64,000 nucleotides of DNA from positions 62,001-126,000 of the forward strand of contig CP038114.1 of assembly GCA_004519485.1 (NCBI GenBank), in the 5' to 3' direction. The DNA is from Nannochloropsis oceanica. Lineage: Eukaryota > Sar > Eustigmatophyceae > Eustigmatales > Monodopsidaceae. Below, piece by piece: positions 44,599-59,643 of the stretch. The notes beneath the pieces were generated by a model. It was not told where the DNA came from. It was given only the letters and a program-made list of their open reading frames with translations, and did no database searches. A program made the translations under genes and the position numbers. The stretch's first letter is position 1. Each line of letters starts with the position of its first letter.

Positions 44599-47500
44599 TC
44601 AACTGGCCCACCGATAAATAACGGTAGGGATGAGAAAAGGATTGCCCTCATCGTCTGCCGCGGAAGTCTCCAGTTCCAGATATTTGCGATGAGCCCCCAC
44701 AATCTCCACGGGCGCGCCTTCATAGCGCTCCAGCACCCACTCGGCCAAGCCCGTCTCGAGATTGGACGCGTACAGCTGCTTGTTGGCCGGCAGATACTCC
44801 TCGCTGTTGTAGAGGAAGCGCCCCTTCTGCGGCCCCTCCAAGCCCGAGGCCTTGTGGAAGAGCAGGGTGATATTGAGCCCTGTTTGTTCCTTGAACGCGT
44901 TTAAGAACCCGCCCAGGGTGAGAGGCCCCTGCTCGATAACGATGCTGTCCCACTTGGTGAAGTCCGCGGGGTAGGGTTTGACGTGCGCCATCTCTATCTC
45001 GTCGTAGCGCTCTTGCGTCTTGGCGGGTGGAGCTGGCTCTTGGAGGAAGTACATATTCAGTCCCAGGTTGTTGGAAGAGTCCTTGAAGGCCTCCAGGGGC
45101 TTGCCTTGCAGCACCTTGAGCAACTCGATGCAGGCCAGGCCCGTCACTGCCGCCGTGGCCGTGGCGATGGCAGGGATTATTTTCCCCGCAATCATCTTGC
45201 ACTTGTGTCGAGAGGCCTGCTTGATCCGATAGTTGGACGCGCGGAGGTTGCAAGCGGCCGTGACAAAGTCGATGTGGAAATTCAGGTCCTGGTCCTTCTC
45301 AAACTCGGCCGGCTCTGGCACCAATCCTCCCGCATCCACGGCCTCCAGCTCCACGATCAGCCTTTCCAACGTCGCCCGTTCCTCCGCTTCTTGCTGCTGC
45401 TGTTGCTTATCCTTCTGCTGTTGCATCGACTCCACGTCCATGGCATCCTCCTTGCGCAGGCTCTCACTGCTTCCCCCTCTCGTGCCTGCCGCGACCTCGC
45501 CTCCTTCCTCCCCCGCTGCCCCCCCCTCCTTCTTCTCCTCCTCCAACTCAATCTTCTCACTACTAGGCGTCCAAGCCGGCACGGGCAAAGTAGCCAAGAT
45601 ACCCTTTATGTATGTCAGGTCCCGAAATTGGTGATCTTGTGCGACGAGCATTTTATCCGGAGGCTCGATCAAACCGTAGTTCACTGCTAGCAGGTTCGCG
45701 ACCGAAACGACAAAGCCCAGGTGCTGCTCGTTCTCTGCGTTGAACACCGCCGGCTGTGGAAAGCGCTTGGCGCCCGTCCAAAACTTGTCCCCGGTGGAGG
45801 TGACGTGATCTTCGGGAAAGTTGTGAATGAGCTGCAGCAGCTTATCGCGGAAGAGCTTATGAAACAGGCTGAACGCCTCCGCCACCAAGGCCGGGAACGT
45901 CACCCCCCGCGCCTGCGTCAAGTAAGTATGTACCCCCTGCAGGAAGTCGATCTCCTTCCCCAAATCCGCCTTCTGCTTTCCACCGCCGGTCCCATTTCCG
46001 TTTCTTTCCCCCCGCAAAGCGGCCTTGGCGTCCTCTAAGTACAATGCACGGTCCTCCAAAAACTTCTTCGAGTCCGCCGCCCCTTCGACAAACAAGTCAT
46101 TAAATTGCGCGCGCGCCCATTCAATGCAATGCTCAATAAGCGAAGGGAAATTCCGTAAGGTACACATGGGAATGGTATCTCCGTCTGCATCGTCCTTTGG
46201 GCCATCGGCATAGGAGGCCGTCAAGTGAGGGATTATCACCTGCACATTACACTTCGTACCCAGCGTGCCTGACTCCAGCAGCGGCTTGCCATAGAACACA
46301 CATCGTGAGTCCACATAGAGGCGAGCCTTGACGTTATCCAAGGCATTAGTCACGAAATCCAACCCCTCCCAAAACTGATCGGGAAAGACGTTCTCCGTCG
46401 TGGTCGCGACCAGCTCCTCCTTCGCCTCGATCTTTATGGCCGTATTCATGTGCAACACCGCCTCTGTCGCCGCCACTGACTTAGCCTGTCCCACATTTTT
46501 CTCGCGAAACAAAAATTGCCTGTTTAAATTACTAACCTCGATGCGATCATTGTCTGTCACAACGATCCCCCCCTTCGGCCCAGTGCCCAGCCCCAACAAG
46601 GCGAAGTTCTTCAGATACTCACAGCCCAACGCCCCGCATCCCACCACAAAAGTACGCGCGTCTGCAATTTGCTCTTGGACAAAAGTCTTCCCAAACATCG
46701 CCACCAAATCATCGTACCGCGTATTTTGGGTGGCCGTCTCCGCAGCTGAAGGCCGGGCCGTGGGTAAGACCTCAAAAGCATCAAGGTGCAGCCACTGCTT
46801 CAAGGGCTGGTACTTCCCTGTAAACTTCACCACCTCCTGCGCCACCACTCCGCCAAAAAAGGCAGCCAACGGCTGAAAGTCCACTTCTGCAAAAAGTGCC
46901 ATGTTGATGACTACGCTCTCCTCCACCTCCTCCAACGCCAGAGCCACCTCCGGGTCCCCTACCGCCTTGAGCTCCGCATTCCGCGCCTGAGTCAGCCGTA
47001 CCACCTCTGCTGCGTCCCCATCGTCGTTAAGCCTCGGAGACCGACCGTGCGCCTCCTCAAACTTCCACATTCCTTGCAAGGCCAAATGAAGTTGCTCGGC
47101 GCGGCCAAACTTGGCGCCGTCAGTAAAGAGGAGGCCAAACTCGCCCGGGGCAACGGGCTGGGCCAGGTTCTGAGCAAGAGTTCGGTAGCTGTACTGCACA
47201 GGCTTCTTAACTTGCGTCAGCACACCGCCATTCTTGTAAGCGGAGAAGGCCCGAGTATCGCCAATGGCGAGCTTGAAGCCATCGTAGACCGTTTTTTCGC
47301 GCTTCGTCCCGTTCCGGTCTTCAACGACAGTTTTGAAGACATGCTTGATTTTAAAAGGCCCCAAGTCGTTGATACTCTTCGCATTGTCCGCAACGCACTC
47401 CATCCCCGACACATCCGAAATGTCCACCCACCCATCATGCTCACTCTCTTCAATCCCATGACTCCGCCCCCCGTCCTCCTGGCTCAGCAGCGTCACAGTG

Positions 47501-48350
47501 CCCTCTTCATTATTCTCTATGTGAGTAATAATGCGAGTGTGCGGGTTCTCGCCCGTCACATCCCTCACTGTAAATTTAGCTCCAAAGTCCGAAAATACAA
47601 AACCCATCGCTCCCTTTACGTCTGCCGCAATGAAAGCAATACTCCGGGCATGGCAAAACTCATTCCATCGCACCATCTCCGCCAAGCGCAACCCCGTGCA
47701 GACCACCACGTTGTGCATCCCCACCACCGTTTCCGTCAATGGCCCGTGCTGCACTCGCACCGACACCATCGAGTTAAGCTCCGCCAGCTTGCTCGCAACG
47801 GCCCCCGCCCGGGGCTTGCCCACGTCGGCCTCGGTCAAGAAGAAGTTGGAGCCCAGGTCCTTGACTTGGGTTGGGTGCTCGTCCCAGAGCGTCACCGCGC
47901 CGGGACCGGCCAAGATGAGGTTCTTGGCCGTCTCCACGCCCACGCCGCGCAGGCCCATGATCAAGACCTGAAGATGGAGGGCGAAGGGAAGGATAAGTTT
48001 AGGGGCCGTATGTCGGGAAATAGGGAAGGGAGAGCGAGGTGAGAGAGGATGATCCCCCTTCTTGCCCTCTGGCCCGACATCCTGCCACGAGAGCTGCATA
48101 ACAAGCACAGCCGTACACAGAAGATCTCCGTTCGTCCGTCTTCCACGCCCAAGCCTGTATAGCCCTCGTCACCCTCACCCTTCCCCTCCCTCTCTCCTAA
48201 CCCACATACCTTGAGCTGAATGAGCTTAGACATGGCCTCAATCCCAAACGCCCCGATCTGCCTCGAGTACTTGTCCATGAAGGCTGCATTATTCGTCAAT
48301 GCCTTGGTGTCTCGGACAGGGCTGCTGGTATGGAGCGGGGAGCTAGCCAT
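44599..48350 (-). CDS. UBA1: Ubiquitin-activating enzyme E1
   Basis: Minus-strand exons 48350-48210 and 47967-44599 (CTCAAG/GTATGT, TCTTCAG; phase 0), 1169 residues. E1 adenylates ubiquitin with ATP, takes it on a cysteine and passes it to E2 enzymes. It has the start YSRQIGAFGIEAMSKL, then the inactive adenylation half (GLRGVGVETAKNLILAG, about 50) and the active half (VGCGALGCEYLKNFALLG, NLNRQFLFREKNVGQAKS, about 480-545). The catalytic Cys lies in PMCTLRNFPSLIEHC (about residue 649). The C-terminal ubiquitin-fold domain ends the protein (IEQGPLTLGGFLNAF, then RFLYNSEEY). It is about 100 residues longer than yeast or human Uba1; the excess lies in a Gly/Asn-rich loop after the catalytic Cys region and a Glu/Gln-rich insert (about 840-900). 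It looks like the main ubiquitin E1, not the SUMO or NEDD8 form. Confidence 0.96.
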
Positions 48351-50881: not shown

Positions 50882-51298
50882 ATGTCTGCCGGCAAATTTT
50901 CTCCCTTCCTGTCCGCCACCACCTTTGCTGTCGTCGGGGCTAGCACCCGCCGCGAGAAATTCGGAAATAAGGTGCTCAGATGCTATCTCCAAGACGGCAA
51001 GAAGGCTATTCCCATCAATCCGAGAGAAAAAGAGATCGAGGGCCTTCCTTGCCTTGCCAACCTTTCCTTTCTGACCTGCCCATCTGAGACGGCAGTTTCT
51101 GTCATTACTCCTCCTGCGGTCACTGTGAGCGTGCTCGAACAGGCTGCCAAGCTGGGAATAAAGCATGTGTGGCTGCAACCGGGCTGTGAGAGTCCCGAGG
51201 CGATTGCCACGGCGGAGAGAGTTGGCTTGCTTCCCACTTTGATCTTTGGTGGCCCATGCGTCTTGGTGGAACTCGGCTTTGAGGGGAGGGATCATTGA
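50882..51298 (+). CDS. CoA-binding domain protein (YccU-like Rossmann fold)
   Basis: A single exon, 138 residues, ATG at 50882 in a good context (CGCCATGTC). The whole length is one CoA_binding_2 domain: TFAVVGASTRREKFGNKVL (the GAS.. nucleotide loop), then KAIPINPREKEIEGLPCLANL (the V/INP...I.G motif), AVSVITPPAVTVSVLEQAAK, and GIKHVWLQPGCESPEAIATA (WLQPG is the family's late signature). It ends with a Cys-containing LIFGGPCVLVEL, where the family usually has a cysteine. Bacterial relatives are about 135-145 residues, so the gene is complete. The function of the family is not established beyond CoA or nucleotide binding. No targeting signal is seen, and a bacterial-type origin is possible. 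Confidence 0.88.
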   Translation: MSAGKFSPFLSATTFAVVGASTRREKFGNKVLRCYLQDGKKAIPINPREKEIEGLPCLANLSFLTCPSETAVSVITPPAVTVSVLEQAAKLGIKHVWLQPGCESPEAIATAERVGLLPTLIFGGPCVLVELGFEGRDH

Positions 51299-52206
51299 TT
51301 GGGGTTAAGAACTGACAACAAGAACGGGAATGAAGGTATGGGAACGCCATGAGATTGTTAAGTTTTACGAATGCGAGGGGAATTGGCCAGGTTGCAGAGG
51401 TGTTTGCTAGGGTGTGCAGTGGCGGGCTTGAGGGTTTGGGTACGGGGACGGGGAGGTCTGAAGCCATGGACCAAAAGATGTCTAGAAGAGCAGAGCAAAT
51501 GAGAAAAGTCGTCTCTTAAAGCCTTCGTAATCAGCTATGTCTGTGCTTCGTGTACAGGAAATTTGTGCCGCATGTGAACGAAGGAATCCATGCCAAAAGC
51601 GCAACGGACTTATCTATCCATCTATCTATCTATTATCGAATATATATATATATATCAATAGTTCTTTTTTTCTGCCGCTCCTACACTCCTGTAGAACTAT
51701 CGCACGCAACCTGACGTCCTCTAGGACTTGCATACGGGGGGGAGCCTTCCACCAATAAAACGTTGCCTATTCACCCCTTATTCCTTGTCCGAGTTTTTCT
51801 AGCGACTTTGACAGGTTTTTCATCAGGCAAAGTCTCCGGACGGCATACACAGGGCCAGGAGAGGAAGGGTGAGGGGGACAAAAGAGGAGGTCAGTGGGGA
51901 TAAAACACATACATTGTCCGCATATCCTGCCGCGGTTAACCAAACCGAAGATCATGGGGAGGAGCTTCTCCACGGACGGTATCCTGTAGGTAGCCCTTGT
52001 CACTGCCCGCACTGTAGTCGCACTCACACTTGCATGCGTACGTTTTCTGGCCCGCATTAAAGAAAGGGCTTACTACGCGCAATTCCTTTAACTGAAGCCT
52101 GACGCTGTCCTTCCCTTGCTCTCCCTTCCATCCTCAAACGCTTTCCTAACTTTGCTCAATCCTCCCCAACCCTTTCCTGGTCTCAGACGCACCAACACAG
52201 AGAAGA
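51299..52206. other. Intergenic region with microsatellites
   Basis: ATCT repeats (about 51612-51630) and a (TA)n run (about 51640-51653) lie here. The right end is a C/T-rich stretch leading to the next ATG. No gene is supported. Confidence 0.5.
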
Positions 52207-53277
52207 ATGGGCAAGGTTTTCGAAGGCCAGTGTGTCTCGGGCGCGGAGGTGCTTTGGGTTGCCGTGCATGGCTTTGGTTTTGCCTTGGCGCTCTTGACCG
52301 TGGGAACGGAGCTACTTCATCCCCGCGCGGTGACGGCTGTGGTGGCGGCCGGCGGGACGTACTTTTTGGTGTTGTCGGAGGTCACGGCTCACAGCATTTT
52401 GCAAGAATGGGCACCCTTGGTAGCCGCAGTCTTGGGGGCTGGCCTTCTTTCAATGGGCGGGGCGCGGTTTGCGAGTGGGCAATCTTTCGCGCCTCCCAGC
52501 TTGTCCTCGGGCGCCGGACCTGTCATAATCCTTTCCGTCTTGGCTGGCTACGTGCTCGCCGCATTTCAGATGCAGGCATTGGGTGAAAAAGGCCTGGAGG
52601 ATTGGATTCCATTGGCTTTTGCAGCGGGAATCAGCGGCCTTCTGGCGAACGCTGGCGCTTACTACAGCCCTAACGAGGACTTTTTCCCTAAAGGTCTTAC
52701 GTCTGGTGCGGGCCCCCGCATGGTCATGCTGGGTTTGGGTCTCTTTGTCGGTCCCTCCTTTCTCGGGGCCTTGGAAAGCCACAAAGGCACGTGGGAGCAG
52801 TGGCTTGCCCTGGCAGCCGCGGCGGCAGGATCGGCGCTTTTCGCATTCGGCGGTGCAAGGTACGCCCAAGGGTTCGAGTTCTTCCCGGAAGCTCTGACCA
52901 GGGGTCCGGTTCCCGCTGCAGGGATGGCCTTGCTGGCTGCTTTTATCTACACGTCATTCGTTGAACATTTTGAAGCTCGAAAGCCTGGGGAAGGGGTGGA
53001 GCAGTGGATGCCACTGCTCGGGGCGGTGGTGGGAGCGGGTGTCTTGTCCCATTGCGGCGCGCGTTGGGGTGCAGGAGAGGCCTTCTTGCCCGCGCTGCTG
53101 GAGAGTGGGGCTTACCCTCTTGTGGCCACAGCGGGCCTGGTTATCTACACAGTATTAGCGTTGCATGCGGTGAATGAACCAAAGGGTGGGTTGACGATGT
53201 TGATGAATTTGGCAGGGGCGGCATCAGTCGTGGGGGCTTTGTCGGCCCTCAACAAGAGGAAGTTTGTTGCGGCATGA
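52207..53277 (+). CDS. Membrane protein made of four TMEM14-like repeats
   Basis: A single exon, 356 residues. After an N-terminal hydrophobic part, four units follow with a period of about 66 residues, each opening with Trp (Trp68, 133, 199 and 267). The unit pattern is W-x-P-L, a Gly/Ala-rich helix, G-A/G-A-R/Y, then F-x-P-x-x-L-x-S-G-A and a second helix, for example LSMGGARFASGQSFAPPSLS, FAFGGARYAQGFEFFPEAL and LSHCGARWGAGEAFLPALLE. A fifth, partial unit ends the protein. The pattern G-x-R-F...F-P-A-G-L-x-x-G-A is that of TMEM14, a roughly 100-residue mitochondrial or plastid membrane family including FAX1-type fatty-acid exporters. So the protein looks like a tandem fusion of a unit normally found singly. 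There is no obvious plastid presequence. Function is unknown; transport of a hydrophobic molecule is inference. A TGTACATA lies 24 bases after the stop. Confidence 0.75.
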   Translation: MGKVFEGQCVSGAEVLWVAVHGFGFALALLTVGTELLHPRAVTAVVAAGGTYFLVLSEVTAHSILQEWAPLVAAVLGAGLLSMGGARFASGQSFAPPSLSSGAGPVIILSVLAGYVLAAFQMQALGEKGLEDWIPLAFAAGISGLLANAGAYYSPNEDFFPKGLTSGAGPRMVMLGLGLFVGPSFLGALESHKGTWEQWLALAAAAAGSALFAFGGARYAQGFEFFPEALTRGPVPAAGMALLAAFIYTSFVEHFEARKPGEGVEQWMPLLGAVVGAGVLSHCGARWGAGEAFLPALLESGAYPLVATAGLVIYTVLALHAVNEPKGGLTMLMNLAGAASVVGALSALNKRKFVAA

Positions 53278-53591
53278 GGATGCGGAAGGGGGCGGGTGGT
53301 TGTACATACTCGAGAGGAAGAGGACGCAGGAGAGATAGAGAGAAAAAAGAAAACGGTAAATCGTCTGAGAGAAAGAAAAGGCATAAAGAGAAGTGGAGTG
53401 AAAGCAAGCCGCAAGAAGGCAGCTAAGAGCAAGGTGGCACACAAGCATATAACAGTGTTCACACTTGCTCTGATTTCCTCTTACCCATCACCTCCTATGC
53501 CCTCCATCTCCAATAATATGTTTTTACACACTAGCCGAAGCATATTTTTCCTTCCTCACTTCATCGTAATTTTCCTTCGAGTCTCAACCCT

Positions 53592-54806
53592 TCACACCCC
53601 TCCTTCACCCCCTCCCGCCACCGCCGCAAGCAACTTCATCTTCTTTCTCCGTTTGTTGTTCGGCCGTTTCCAGCTTGGCGTCGCACCCGTGCTCCTCAAT
53701 CCCTCCACAGAAAAGACCACGCGCCAGGTAGGAGGGTTGCTTTTGTTGGCCGCCGACTCCAACCAAGGCACCAACGGGTTTTTCTCCTCCTCCCGGGAGA
53801 GCGGGCCGGGGTGGCAGAACCAAACGGAAAAGAAGGGGGAAGAGTCGTGGCCCGTGCCTTGTGGGTGCTGATACTCATACTTCTGGGCTGGAACGAGATA
53901 GAAAGGTTTTTGAGCTTCGGGGAGAGAGGCGATGGCGTCCAGGTAGTACGCCTTATTCGCTACGTAGTTGGGGAGGAGCAGACAAAAGGGCCTGTCGGAA
54001 GCCAGGCAGAACCGCAGAGCCTTTTCTTTGTGGTCACCCGAGTAGGGGGGATTGGTGACCAAAACATCGTGCCGAGGAATGCGATTCTCCACCACATCTG
54101 CGTAGAAATCCCGCATTTTATTAGTCACGTGCGAGAAGCCAAGCCGACCCAGAAGGCCGACAACGGCGCCTTGGCAGTAGTAAGGATCGTAGATATGGAG
54201 GGCGGGCTTTCCCTGCTGCTTTCCCAAGGCTCGGCATAGCCAGACAAGGAAGGCTTCTAAGTCCTGATAGGCGCGGAAGGGACTCTCGAAGTGGTCGGCG
54301 TACTCGGTGGGGAATGGATAGAGGTGGAGGGAGGGGCGGGTCGTGGGGGAAGGAGAGGGAAACGTGTGGTGCTGTCGCGGCGGAGCTTTGGAGCCGGAGT
54401 TAGACATGGAAGGCGCGGAAGGTGGATAAGAGGAAGCTGTAGTAGAGGATGAAAAGGGCAGTGATAGGAGCTTCTTTTTCTTTTTCTTTTTCTTGTTGCT
54501 GGTGGCCGGGGGGGCACGCGATGGGAATGGGTTATCGACAACTGTGACGTTGAGCGCCACCGGGTCGTCGGAATTGGCCTTGTGTGGGGAGGAAAACACA
54601 GAAGGCGCAGTGGCTGTAGAATTTGTAGACGACGGACGCTTTCGCTTCTTGTGCTTTTTGGTGCTACCCTCTTGCAGAAGCTGAGGGGAGGCGTGAGGGT
54701 GTTGGTGTAGTGATGGTGGAGAGGGGGGCATGGGCAGCACTGGCATCTGCTTCTTCCTCTTCTTCTTCTTGTGCTTCTTGTGCGTGCATGGGTGCGCCTT
54801 CGACAT
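53592..54806 (-). CDS. Methyltransferase-fold protein with NPPY motif and Lys-rich N-terminus
   Basis: A single minus-strand exon, 404 residues from ATG at 54806. The N-terminal 170 residues are disordered with three Lys blocks (KKHKKKKRKK, KKHKKRKRP, a run of eight or more Lys), probably nuclear or nucleolar signals. The C-terminal part is a Rossmann-type methyltransferase: LHIYDPYYCQGAVVGLLGRL (motif I region, about 200-220), then HDVLVTNPPYSGDHKEKAL with NPPY at about 249-252, followed by FCLLLPNYVANK. NPPY is the catalytic tetrapeptide of enzymes that methylate an amide or base amino group, such as adenine N6 or glutamine. The short N-terminal SAM motif (DPYYCQG) is unusual. It ends with basic KRPNNKRRKKMK. 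The target is unknown; DNA, RNA or protein are all possible. Confidence 0.75.
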   Translation of the reverse strand: MSKAHPCTHKKHKKKKRKKQMPVLPMPPSPPSLHQHPHASPQLLQEGSTKKHKKRKRPSSTNSTATAPSVFSSPHKANSDDPVALNVTVVDNPFPSRAPPATSNKKKKKKKKLLSLPFSSSTTASSYPPSAPSMSNSGSKAPPRQHHTFPSPSPTTRPSLHLYPFPTEYADHFESPFRAYQDLEAFLVWLCRALGKQQGKPALHIYDPYYCQGAVVGLLGRLGFSHVTNKMRDFYADVVENRIPRHDVLVTNPPYSGDHKEKALRFCLASDRPFCLLLPNYVANKAYYLDAIASLPEAQKPFYLVPAQKYEYQHPQGTGHDSSPFFSVWFCHPGPLSREEEKNPLVPWLESAANKSNPPTWRVVFSVEGLRSTGATPSWKRPNNKRRKKMKLLAAVAGGGEGGV

Positions 54807-58602: not shown

Positions 58603-59643
58603 ATGCAGCAACAAGAAGCAGTAGCAGCACGTGCTTGGAATAGCAGACGCGGCTCCACCAAGACTACGACATCTACCTTATCCGTCGCCTTGATGGCCGC
58701 GCTCTTGGCCAGCAGTGTCGTCCCCGAGGCCAGTGCCTTTCTCCCCTTGCACTCCTGTTCTTGCCTGCCCTCCCCCTCATCATGCCGCAGCAGTGTTGCG
58801 AGTCATGCCAGGACTCCGGTCAGCACCCCCCAAAGCTTCGGCAAGCGCGCACTGGTCGTGACGGCCACAGCTGCGTCCTCCTCCAACAAGAAAAAATCCA
58901 CGAAGAAAGGGCTGCGCGGCGATGTCCTGCGGGATTCCGGCAGCAGCACGAGCCGACAGGCCAACGACACGACAGGGTCGGCGGGGGCTGGCTCTGCGTG
59001 TGACCCCAATAACCCTTTCTTTACGTCCGAATTCGGGGAGGATGAAGATGAGAACACAGCAGAAGCAGAAGCAGAGACCGAGGCTGAGAAAGAGAAGCGT
59101 TTGCAGGAAGAGGATGAGTGGCTACTGAACTTTAGCCGGGACGACCCCGACTTGTACACCGAGACCTTCTCCAAGCCCGAGGAGCGGAAAGCCCGGGCTG
59201 CCGCCACCAAGAACCGGTACGACTTTACTTGTCTGACGGTAGAAGAAGTGGCACGGTCCTATCAAGTACCAATTTCGTGGGTTGGGGACGCGTTATGTAA
59301 CTTTGGGGTGGTGCCGCCCATCCAATGGACGGCGCGAATGGGGGATTTAATCGATGGAGAGCAGGCTTATGCGTTGCTGGAGGCGATGCACGGGTGGGAT
59401 CACGCCATTATGTACGACATGTACACTTGGGACAGCTTGCGGGAGTTGGCGGCCTCGCACGATTTACCGATTGCGAAGGTGTTGCAGGTTTGTGACGAGG
59501 AGGGCTTTGCCTTGCCATTCGGGCTGAGGAGTCACTTGCGGTTGGAGCAGTACGCGAGATTGATGCGGCGCCTGGGCCTGGCACGGGAACTGACAGACCA
59601 GATCAAGGAGAATCACCCCGATCCCGATTATCCCTCCACATGA
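58603..59643 (+). CDS. Plastid-targeted protein of unknown function, IF2-N-like helical modules
   Basis: A single exon, 346 residues, ATG at 58603. The N-terminus is a textbook two-part plastid signal: a signal peptide (TLSVALMAALLASSVVPEASAF) with ASAF-LP at cleavage, then a long Ser/Ala/Arg-rich transit region. A middle acidic stretch (EDENTAEAEAETEAEKE) follows. The C-terminal 150 residues hold two similar helical modules, FTCLTVEEVARSYQVPISWV and TWDSLRELAASHDLPIAKVL, both of the type (L)xxLAxxxxxPxxxVxxxxxxxG seen in the N-terminal modules of IF2 and other nucleic-acid-binding winged-helix-like domains. The rest (GLRSHLRLEQYARLMRRLG) is also helical. A role in plastid gene expression is inference from the module only. 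TGTACA lies 50 bases after the stop. Confidence 0.8.
   Translation: MQQQEAVAARAWNSRRGSTKTTTSTLSVALMAALLASSVVPEASAFLPLHSCSCLPSPSSCRSSVASHARTPVSTPQSFGKRALVVTATAASSSNKKKSTKKGLRGDVLRDSGSSTSRQANDTTGSAGAGSACDPNNPFFTSEFGEDEDENTAEAEAETEAEKEKRLQEEDEWLLNFSRDDPDLYTETFSKPEERKARAAATKNRYDFTCLTVEEVARSYQVPISWVGDALCNFGVVPPIQWTARMGDLIDGEQAYALLEAMHGWDHAIMYDMYTWDSLRELAASHDLPIAKVLQVCDEEGFALPFGLRSHLRLEQYARLMRRLGLARELTDQIKENHPDPDYPST

Follow-up and report, generated by a model that had tools for sequence, protein, structure and literature searches.

A Nannochloropsis oceanica membrane protein with four tandem two-helix units, not a detectable member of the TMEM14 family

The window analyzed here, a stretch of 64,000 nucleotides from Nannochloropsis oceanica (positions 62001-126000 of contig C17), carries on its plus strand an uninterrupted reading frame for a protein of 356 amino acids, which begins with ATG and is preceded by an in-frame stop 20 codons upstream. 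Its layout in window coordinates is as follows:

52207..53277, + strand: membrane protein gene, 356 aa, single open frame
52207..52398, + strand: N-terminal part, residues 1-64, with hydrophobic segments 15-33 and 41-59
52399..52593, + strand: unit 1, residues 65-129 (50.2 bits when left out)
52486..52512, + strand: loop motif F-x-P-x-x-L-x-S-G of unit 1, residues 94-102
52594..52788, + strand: unit 2, residues 130-194 (42.9 bits when left out)
52681..52707, + strand: loop motif of unit 2, residues 159-167
52792..52995, + strand: unit 3, residues 196-263 (43.0 bits when left out)
52879..52905, + strand: loop motif of unit 3, residues 225-233, with R in place of S
52996..53190, + strand: unit 4, residues 264-328 (41.7 bits when left out)
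53083..53109, + strand: loop motif of unit 4, residues 293-301
53191..53277, + strand: C-terminal hydrophobic helix (residues 329-347), basic tail and stop; previously read as a partial fifth unit, profile not significant

Scored with a codon table built from the window's 11 ORFs of at least 1200 nt, from which the frame itself was excluded, ORF 52207-53277 reaches 0.137, a value within the range of 0.053-0.24 covered by 15 of the 16 other window ORFs of at least 750 nt; the sixteenth, an antisense frame at 47086-48042, scores -0.022. All five other frames at the locus score negative. A search of the genome (29,264,788 bases, 32 contigs) with residues 65-327, in which one first-look candidate was scored, returned no second copy of the gene at E ≤ 10. 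The neighbor genes that were scanned offer no clue to the function of the protein: The convergent ORF 53592-54806 (minus strand) contains an NPPYSGDH stretch similar to that of NPPY-type methyltransferases, and ORF 58603-59643 (plus strand, 346 aa) has a good coding score of 0.181; for both, no Pfam match was obtained at E ≤ 0.001.

A reading of the sequence alone had proposed a fourfold unit with a period of about 66 residues, and this repeat structure was confirmed: The protein holds four tandem units of 65-68 residues each, and a profile built from any three of them recovers the omitted fourth with 41.7-50.2 bits, the profiles being searched against this protein alone, without decoy proteins. 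The tryptophan expected near each unit start is found at residues 68, 133, 199, and 267, that is, at spacings of 65, 66, and 68. The block F-x-P-x-x-L-x-S-G-A, which had been ascribed to every unit, is exact in three of the four, but reads FFPEALTRGP in unit 3. Twelve positions are invariant across all units (W4, L7, A10, G21, A22, F30, P32, L35, G38, P41, L48, and G65), which identifies the stretch joining the two helices of each unit as the best-kept part. In a lag test of protein self-similarity with 1000 shuffles per kind, either global or local over 10 residues, the score at lag 199 (0.27) exceeded all global (maximum -0.10) and all local shuffles (maximum -0.006); the score at lag 65 (-0.05) exceeded all global, but not all local shuffles. 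At the DNA level, Tandem Repeats Finder reported no repeat across 51000-54500.

The flanks of the array are less clear-cut. The C-terminal "partial fifth" unit of the sequence-only reading is undetectable: It scores -1.5 to -3.8 bits in three of the five unit profiles and goes unlisted in the remaining two, so that only one further hydrophobic helix, correctly placed, is left of it. Residues 1-64 score -0.3 to -3.6 bits against the unit profiles and thus have no detectable similarity to the units; possibly, they form a degenerate hairpin. Both this N-terminal part and the fifth part-unit may be decayed units.

At the protein level, the units agree pairwise in 19 to 27 of 65 positions (29-42%). 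Across the six unit pairs, third codon positions are identical at 0.28-0.35; the value is 0.42-0.57 for first and 0.49-0.63 for second positions, where the agreement is raised in part by common hydrophobic composition. Low third-position identity together with retained amino-acid similarity argues that the duplications are old and that the protein is probably held by selection. Old duplications whose protein sequence has been preserved in this way argue in turn that the gene is real.

Hydropathy analysis yields 11 hydrophobic segments of 19 residues each: two before the units, two per unit, and one after. Each unit opens with an acidic, Trp-bearing entry, followed by two hydrophobic helices: helix A, which is rich in small residues, and helix B, joined to it by a loop in which F, P, L, G, and P are conserved. 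Across the four units, the content of G, A, and S is 42-68% in the A helices and 26-42% in the B helices. On the assumption that all 11 segments span the membrane, the loops on the A-B side carry eight K/R and seven D/E, a count that includes the C-terminal tail (three K/R, no D/E), with two more R at helix ends on the same side, and the loops on the B-A side carry six K/R and 13 D/E. The positive-inside rule relates loop charge to membrane side, and the charge distribution would accordingly put the basic C-terminus on the inner side together with the loops between helices A and B, and the linkers that carry Trp on the outer side. Because the number of helices per unit is even, all four hairpins would enter the membrane in like sense, which allows for rotational pseudo-symmetry without proving it. 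No charged residue inside the helices is common to the units, and hence active transport finds no direct support.

The structure models are of low confidence and support no particular packing, pore, or ring of the units: AlphaFold2 gave a mean pLDDT of 45.0 and a pTM of 0.32 for the single sequence, and of 48.6 and 0.29 when units 1-2 were aligned with units 3-4. In both, long helices coincide with the hydrophobic segments; in the single-sequence model, unit 2 has a broken helix B, and helices are also placed at residues 12-33 and 39-59 of the N-terminal part. In this model, a short helix at or adjoining F-x-P-x-x-L-x-S-G appears in every unit, but measures only three residues in unit 1; it recurs in both units of the paired-unit model. 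The regular helix pattern, whose absence had been named beforehand as evidence against the sequence-only reading, was observed as two long helices per unit, though only in low-confidence models.

The sequence-only reading had further assigned each unit to the TMEM14 family, and this assignment did not survive at the profile level. Neither the whole protein nor any of the four units nor any of six sub-blocks matched the Tmemb_14 profile (PF03647; 92 positions, cut-off 24.8 bits) at E ≤ 10 in a profile scan whose HMMER filters leave most matches weaker than about E=0.1 unlisted. The genome-wide search with PF03647 led to three other places, where the ORFs score 77.3, 55.3, and 16.4 bits; the first two are true TMEM14 genes above the cut-off, and the third is a marginal match to the second half of the profile. 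Profile-profile comparison (hhalign) of the unit alignment with TMEM14 gave probabilities of 0.7-2.33% across versions, compared with 97.55-99.72% when each of four true TMEM14s was left out in turn as a positive control, and BLASTP against the two TMEM14s of the alga gave E values of 0.68 and 0.64. By these sequence comparisons, no membership of the TMEM14 family can be detected for the protein. Moreover, the equation of one unit with one TMEM14 domain fails on helix number: In three publications, the Tmemb_14 domain is described as consisting of four helices, of which NMR shows three to span the membrane and one to be amphiphilic (PMC4344464, PMC9470853, PMC9333335), whereas each unit has two hydrophobic segments, and only a pair of units would have four. 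A unit therefore amounts to at most half a TMEM14, and if the two are kin, the protein corresponds to two TMEM14 equivalents and not to four. Two side observations concern the TMEM14 proteins of this genome. The short membrane ORF L004:1528-1935 (plus strand, contig C21) has a match to the TMEM14 profile that is confined to the second half and lies below the cut-off (E=0.015); the ORF may be half a TMEM14, or an exon of the gene may have been missed. The TMEM14 protein of contig C12, L002:1480-1797 (plus strand), also matches the mitochondrial Aim19 family below the cut-off (E=0.0018), and a distant link between the two families is possible on the basis of this match.

Most likely, the product of the gene is an orphan membrane protein with pseudo-symmetry, in which four hairpins form one covalent array. 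Beyond this, we tentatively propose a joint reading, to which we give somewhat less than an even chance: A two-helix hairpin would have been duplicated in tandem long ago to yield a polytopic membrane protein, in which the four like-oriented hairpins could act as a covalently fused pseudo-oligomer that binds or passes a small molecule. The small-residue faces of the A helices might pack round a common axis or in an arc, which is a guess, and the conserved loops would together make up a repeated surface for binding or gating on one side of the membrane; since the loop recurs in every unit, this face may carry four equivalent sites. The molecule bound or passed could, again as a guess, be small and hydrophobic or amphipathic.

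The main rival, which we consider somewhat unlikely, assigns no transport to the protein and regards it as a structural membrane scaffold or assembly factor made of stacked small-residue hairpins. The richness of the A helices in G, A, and S and the lack of an intramembrane charge common to the units would suit such a role, as would a weak resemblance to VMA21, an assembly factor of the V-ATPase: When the PDB was searched with the unit profile, the VMA21 chain was the best of 10 sequences listed (E=0.0017), the similarity falling on its loop and second helix. This match covers only 37 residues, however, and the other nine sequences listed are methionyl-tRNA synthetases at E 0.05, which marks the noise level of the search; as a single match near noise, VMA21 was rejected as a relative, and the well-conserved A-B loop points to a functional site that recurs from unit to unit. 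The proposal that the units belong with holin-like proteins of the LrgA/CidA type starts from a Pfam match to LrgA (PF03788) at residues 234-309 (E=0.0016, 18.8 bits). It persists in three of four sub-blocks (E 0.0011, 0.0024, and 0.044; 14.2-19.3 bits), which hold these residues or nearly all of them, and is missing from the fourth (residues 1-194), and none of five controls (one reversed, four locally shuffled) gave any Pfam match at E ≤ 10. The match nevertheless stays below the family cut-off of 28 bits and spans helix B of unit 3 to helix A of unit 4, that is, one of three equivalent junctions of which the others are unmatched. The genome has an LrgA-LrgB gene of its own, to whose product the best BLASTP piece extends over 27 residues (E=0.013) outside the LrgA part, which is no meaningful alignment. 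LrgA was hence discarded as a family assignment, and we regard a relationship of this type as very unlikely.

A further rival, unlikely in our view, sees the units as very distant TMEM14 half-domains and the protein as two tandem four-helix domains of the TMEM14/FAX type that export lipid or porphyrin. It draws on the loop: The unit profile aligns without gaps over 22 columns to the second half of TMEM14 (G-x-R-aromatic...F-x-P-x-x-L-x-x-G), and in a comparison that was chosen once the motif had been noticed, this score was equaled in four of 400 segment-wise column permutations, and in one of 150 with shorter TMEM14 sequences. The first half, by contrast, was matched as well by 24 of 400 permutations (13 of 150 in the version with shorter sequences) and the whole domain by 13 of 150. 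When another membrane protein was cut into 26 overlapping segments that served as decoys, two of the four single units exceeded the best decoy for the second half and none for the first. Supportive as well are the weak mutual alignment of TMEM14's own two halves (score 14.16, probability 3.7%) and the restriction of the marginal L004 match to the second half, but paired units fail to align with the two halves in order (0.6%, 23 columns), and the poor profile and BLASTP results given above weigh on the same side. The complete loop pattern occurs in human TMEM14C and, with I for F, in TMEM14A, yet it is incomplete in the alga's own two TMEM14s. Overall, the shared loop motif is suggestive of kinship between the units and the second half of TMEM14, but not proof of it. 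A bolder version, which we consider improbable, would make the protein a covalent pseudo-tetramer of the TMEM14-half hairpin, in which a hairpin present in two copies in TMEM14 was multiplied further. If this were true, TMEM14/FAX transporters would have grown from a two-helix ancestor and could work as fused rings round a lipid or metabolite path.

Several other candidates were set aside. Matches to Acyl_transf_3 (E 4.7 and 0.51) were taken as chance. ATP-synthase c and V-ATPase proteolipid subunits bear a membrane-embedded acidic residue in helix 2; no such Pfam family was matched at E ≤ 10, and D and E are absent from the helix B segment of every unit. Searched as a whole against the PDB, the protein gave two chance matches only (E 1.3 and 1.4), and against NCBIfam one (E 0.23). 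No relative was found among phages at E ≤ 1 or in PHROGs, nor among viral contigs or prokaryote genome contigs, where short exact peptide patterns (part of the viral search and the means of the prokaryote search) reach close relatives only; plasmids gave three matches to unrelated enzymes at E 6-9, which were taken as chance. As these collections cover prokaryotes, phages, viruses, and plasmids, absence from them is uninformative on other algae. Among the titles listed in literature searches on TMEM14/FAX1, Nannochloropsis, repeats, and fatty acid export, none is on this protein; the one paper listed for TMEM14, FAX1, and Nannochloropsis together is a review on a red alga. The phrase "two Tmemb_14 domains" was not found in a literature search for Tmemb_14/PF03647 and tandem. 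LrgA also forms part of the plastid glycolate/glycerate carrier, and the genome contains an unusual fusion that involves it: In L006:511-2427 (minus strand, contig C21), an adenylate kinase (PF00406, profile positions 23-147) is joined in frame to LrgA and LrgB, with LrgA scoring 27.6-32.6 bits in two scans. We take its LrgA-LrgB parts to be of the plastid glycolate/glycerate carrier type.

We therefore return to the array of four hairpins as the preferred reading and regard the protein as a genuine uncharacterized repeat membrane protein, for which a link to lipid export is at most a possibility. Membrane proteins with many hairpins in one chain are useful for understanding the origin and fusion of oligomeric channels and carriers. 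If the loop motif reflects descent, the protein would also bear on the evolution and working of the TMEM14/FAX transporters, which are still poorly understood. The source organism is probably an oleaginous alga, in which the export of lipid from the plastid has practical interest.

Compared with known systems, the protein shares with TMEM14/FAX proteins membrane helices that are rich in small residues and arranged in hairpins as well as the loop R-aromatic-x5-F/I-x-P-x2-L-x2-G, which human TMEM14C and TMEM14A carry in their second half. It differs from them in having four two-helix units in place of a single four-helix domain and in the lack of any profile or sequence match, the alga's own TMEM14s themselves being without the complete loop pattern. 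With LrgA/CidA (PF03788), it has in common the weak profile match over one junction, which is below the family cut-off and not repeated in the other units. In architecture, the closest parallel known to us comes from archaeal ATPases, whose rotor subunits can contain many hairpins: Like the fused rotor c subunits of V/A-type ATPases, the protein would join tandem two-helix hairpins in a single chain as a covalent pseudo-oligomer, and in Methanopyrus kandleri, the fused c subunit comprises 13 hairpins in one chain (PMC2359735). Since the protein has neither a Pfam match to an ATP-synthase c family at E ≤ 10 nor an acidic residue in helix B, its likeness to these rotor subunits is an analogy of architecture only, with nothing that ties the two by descent.
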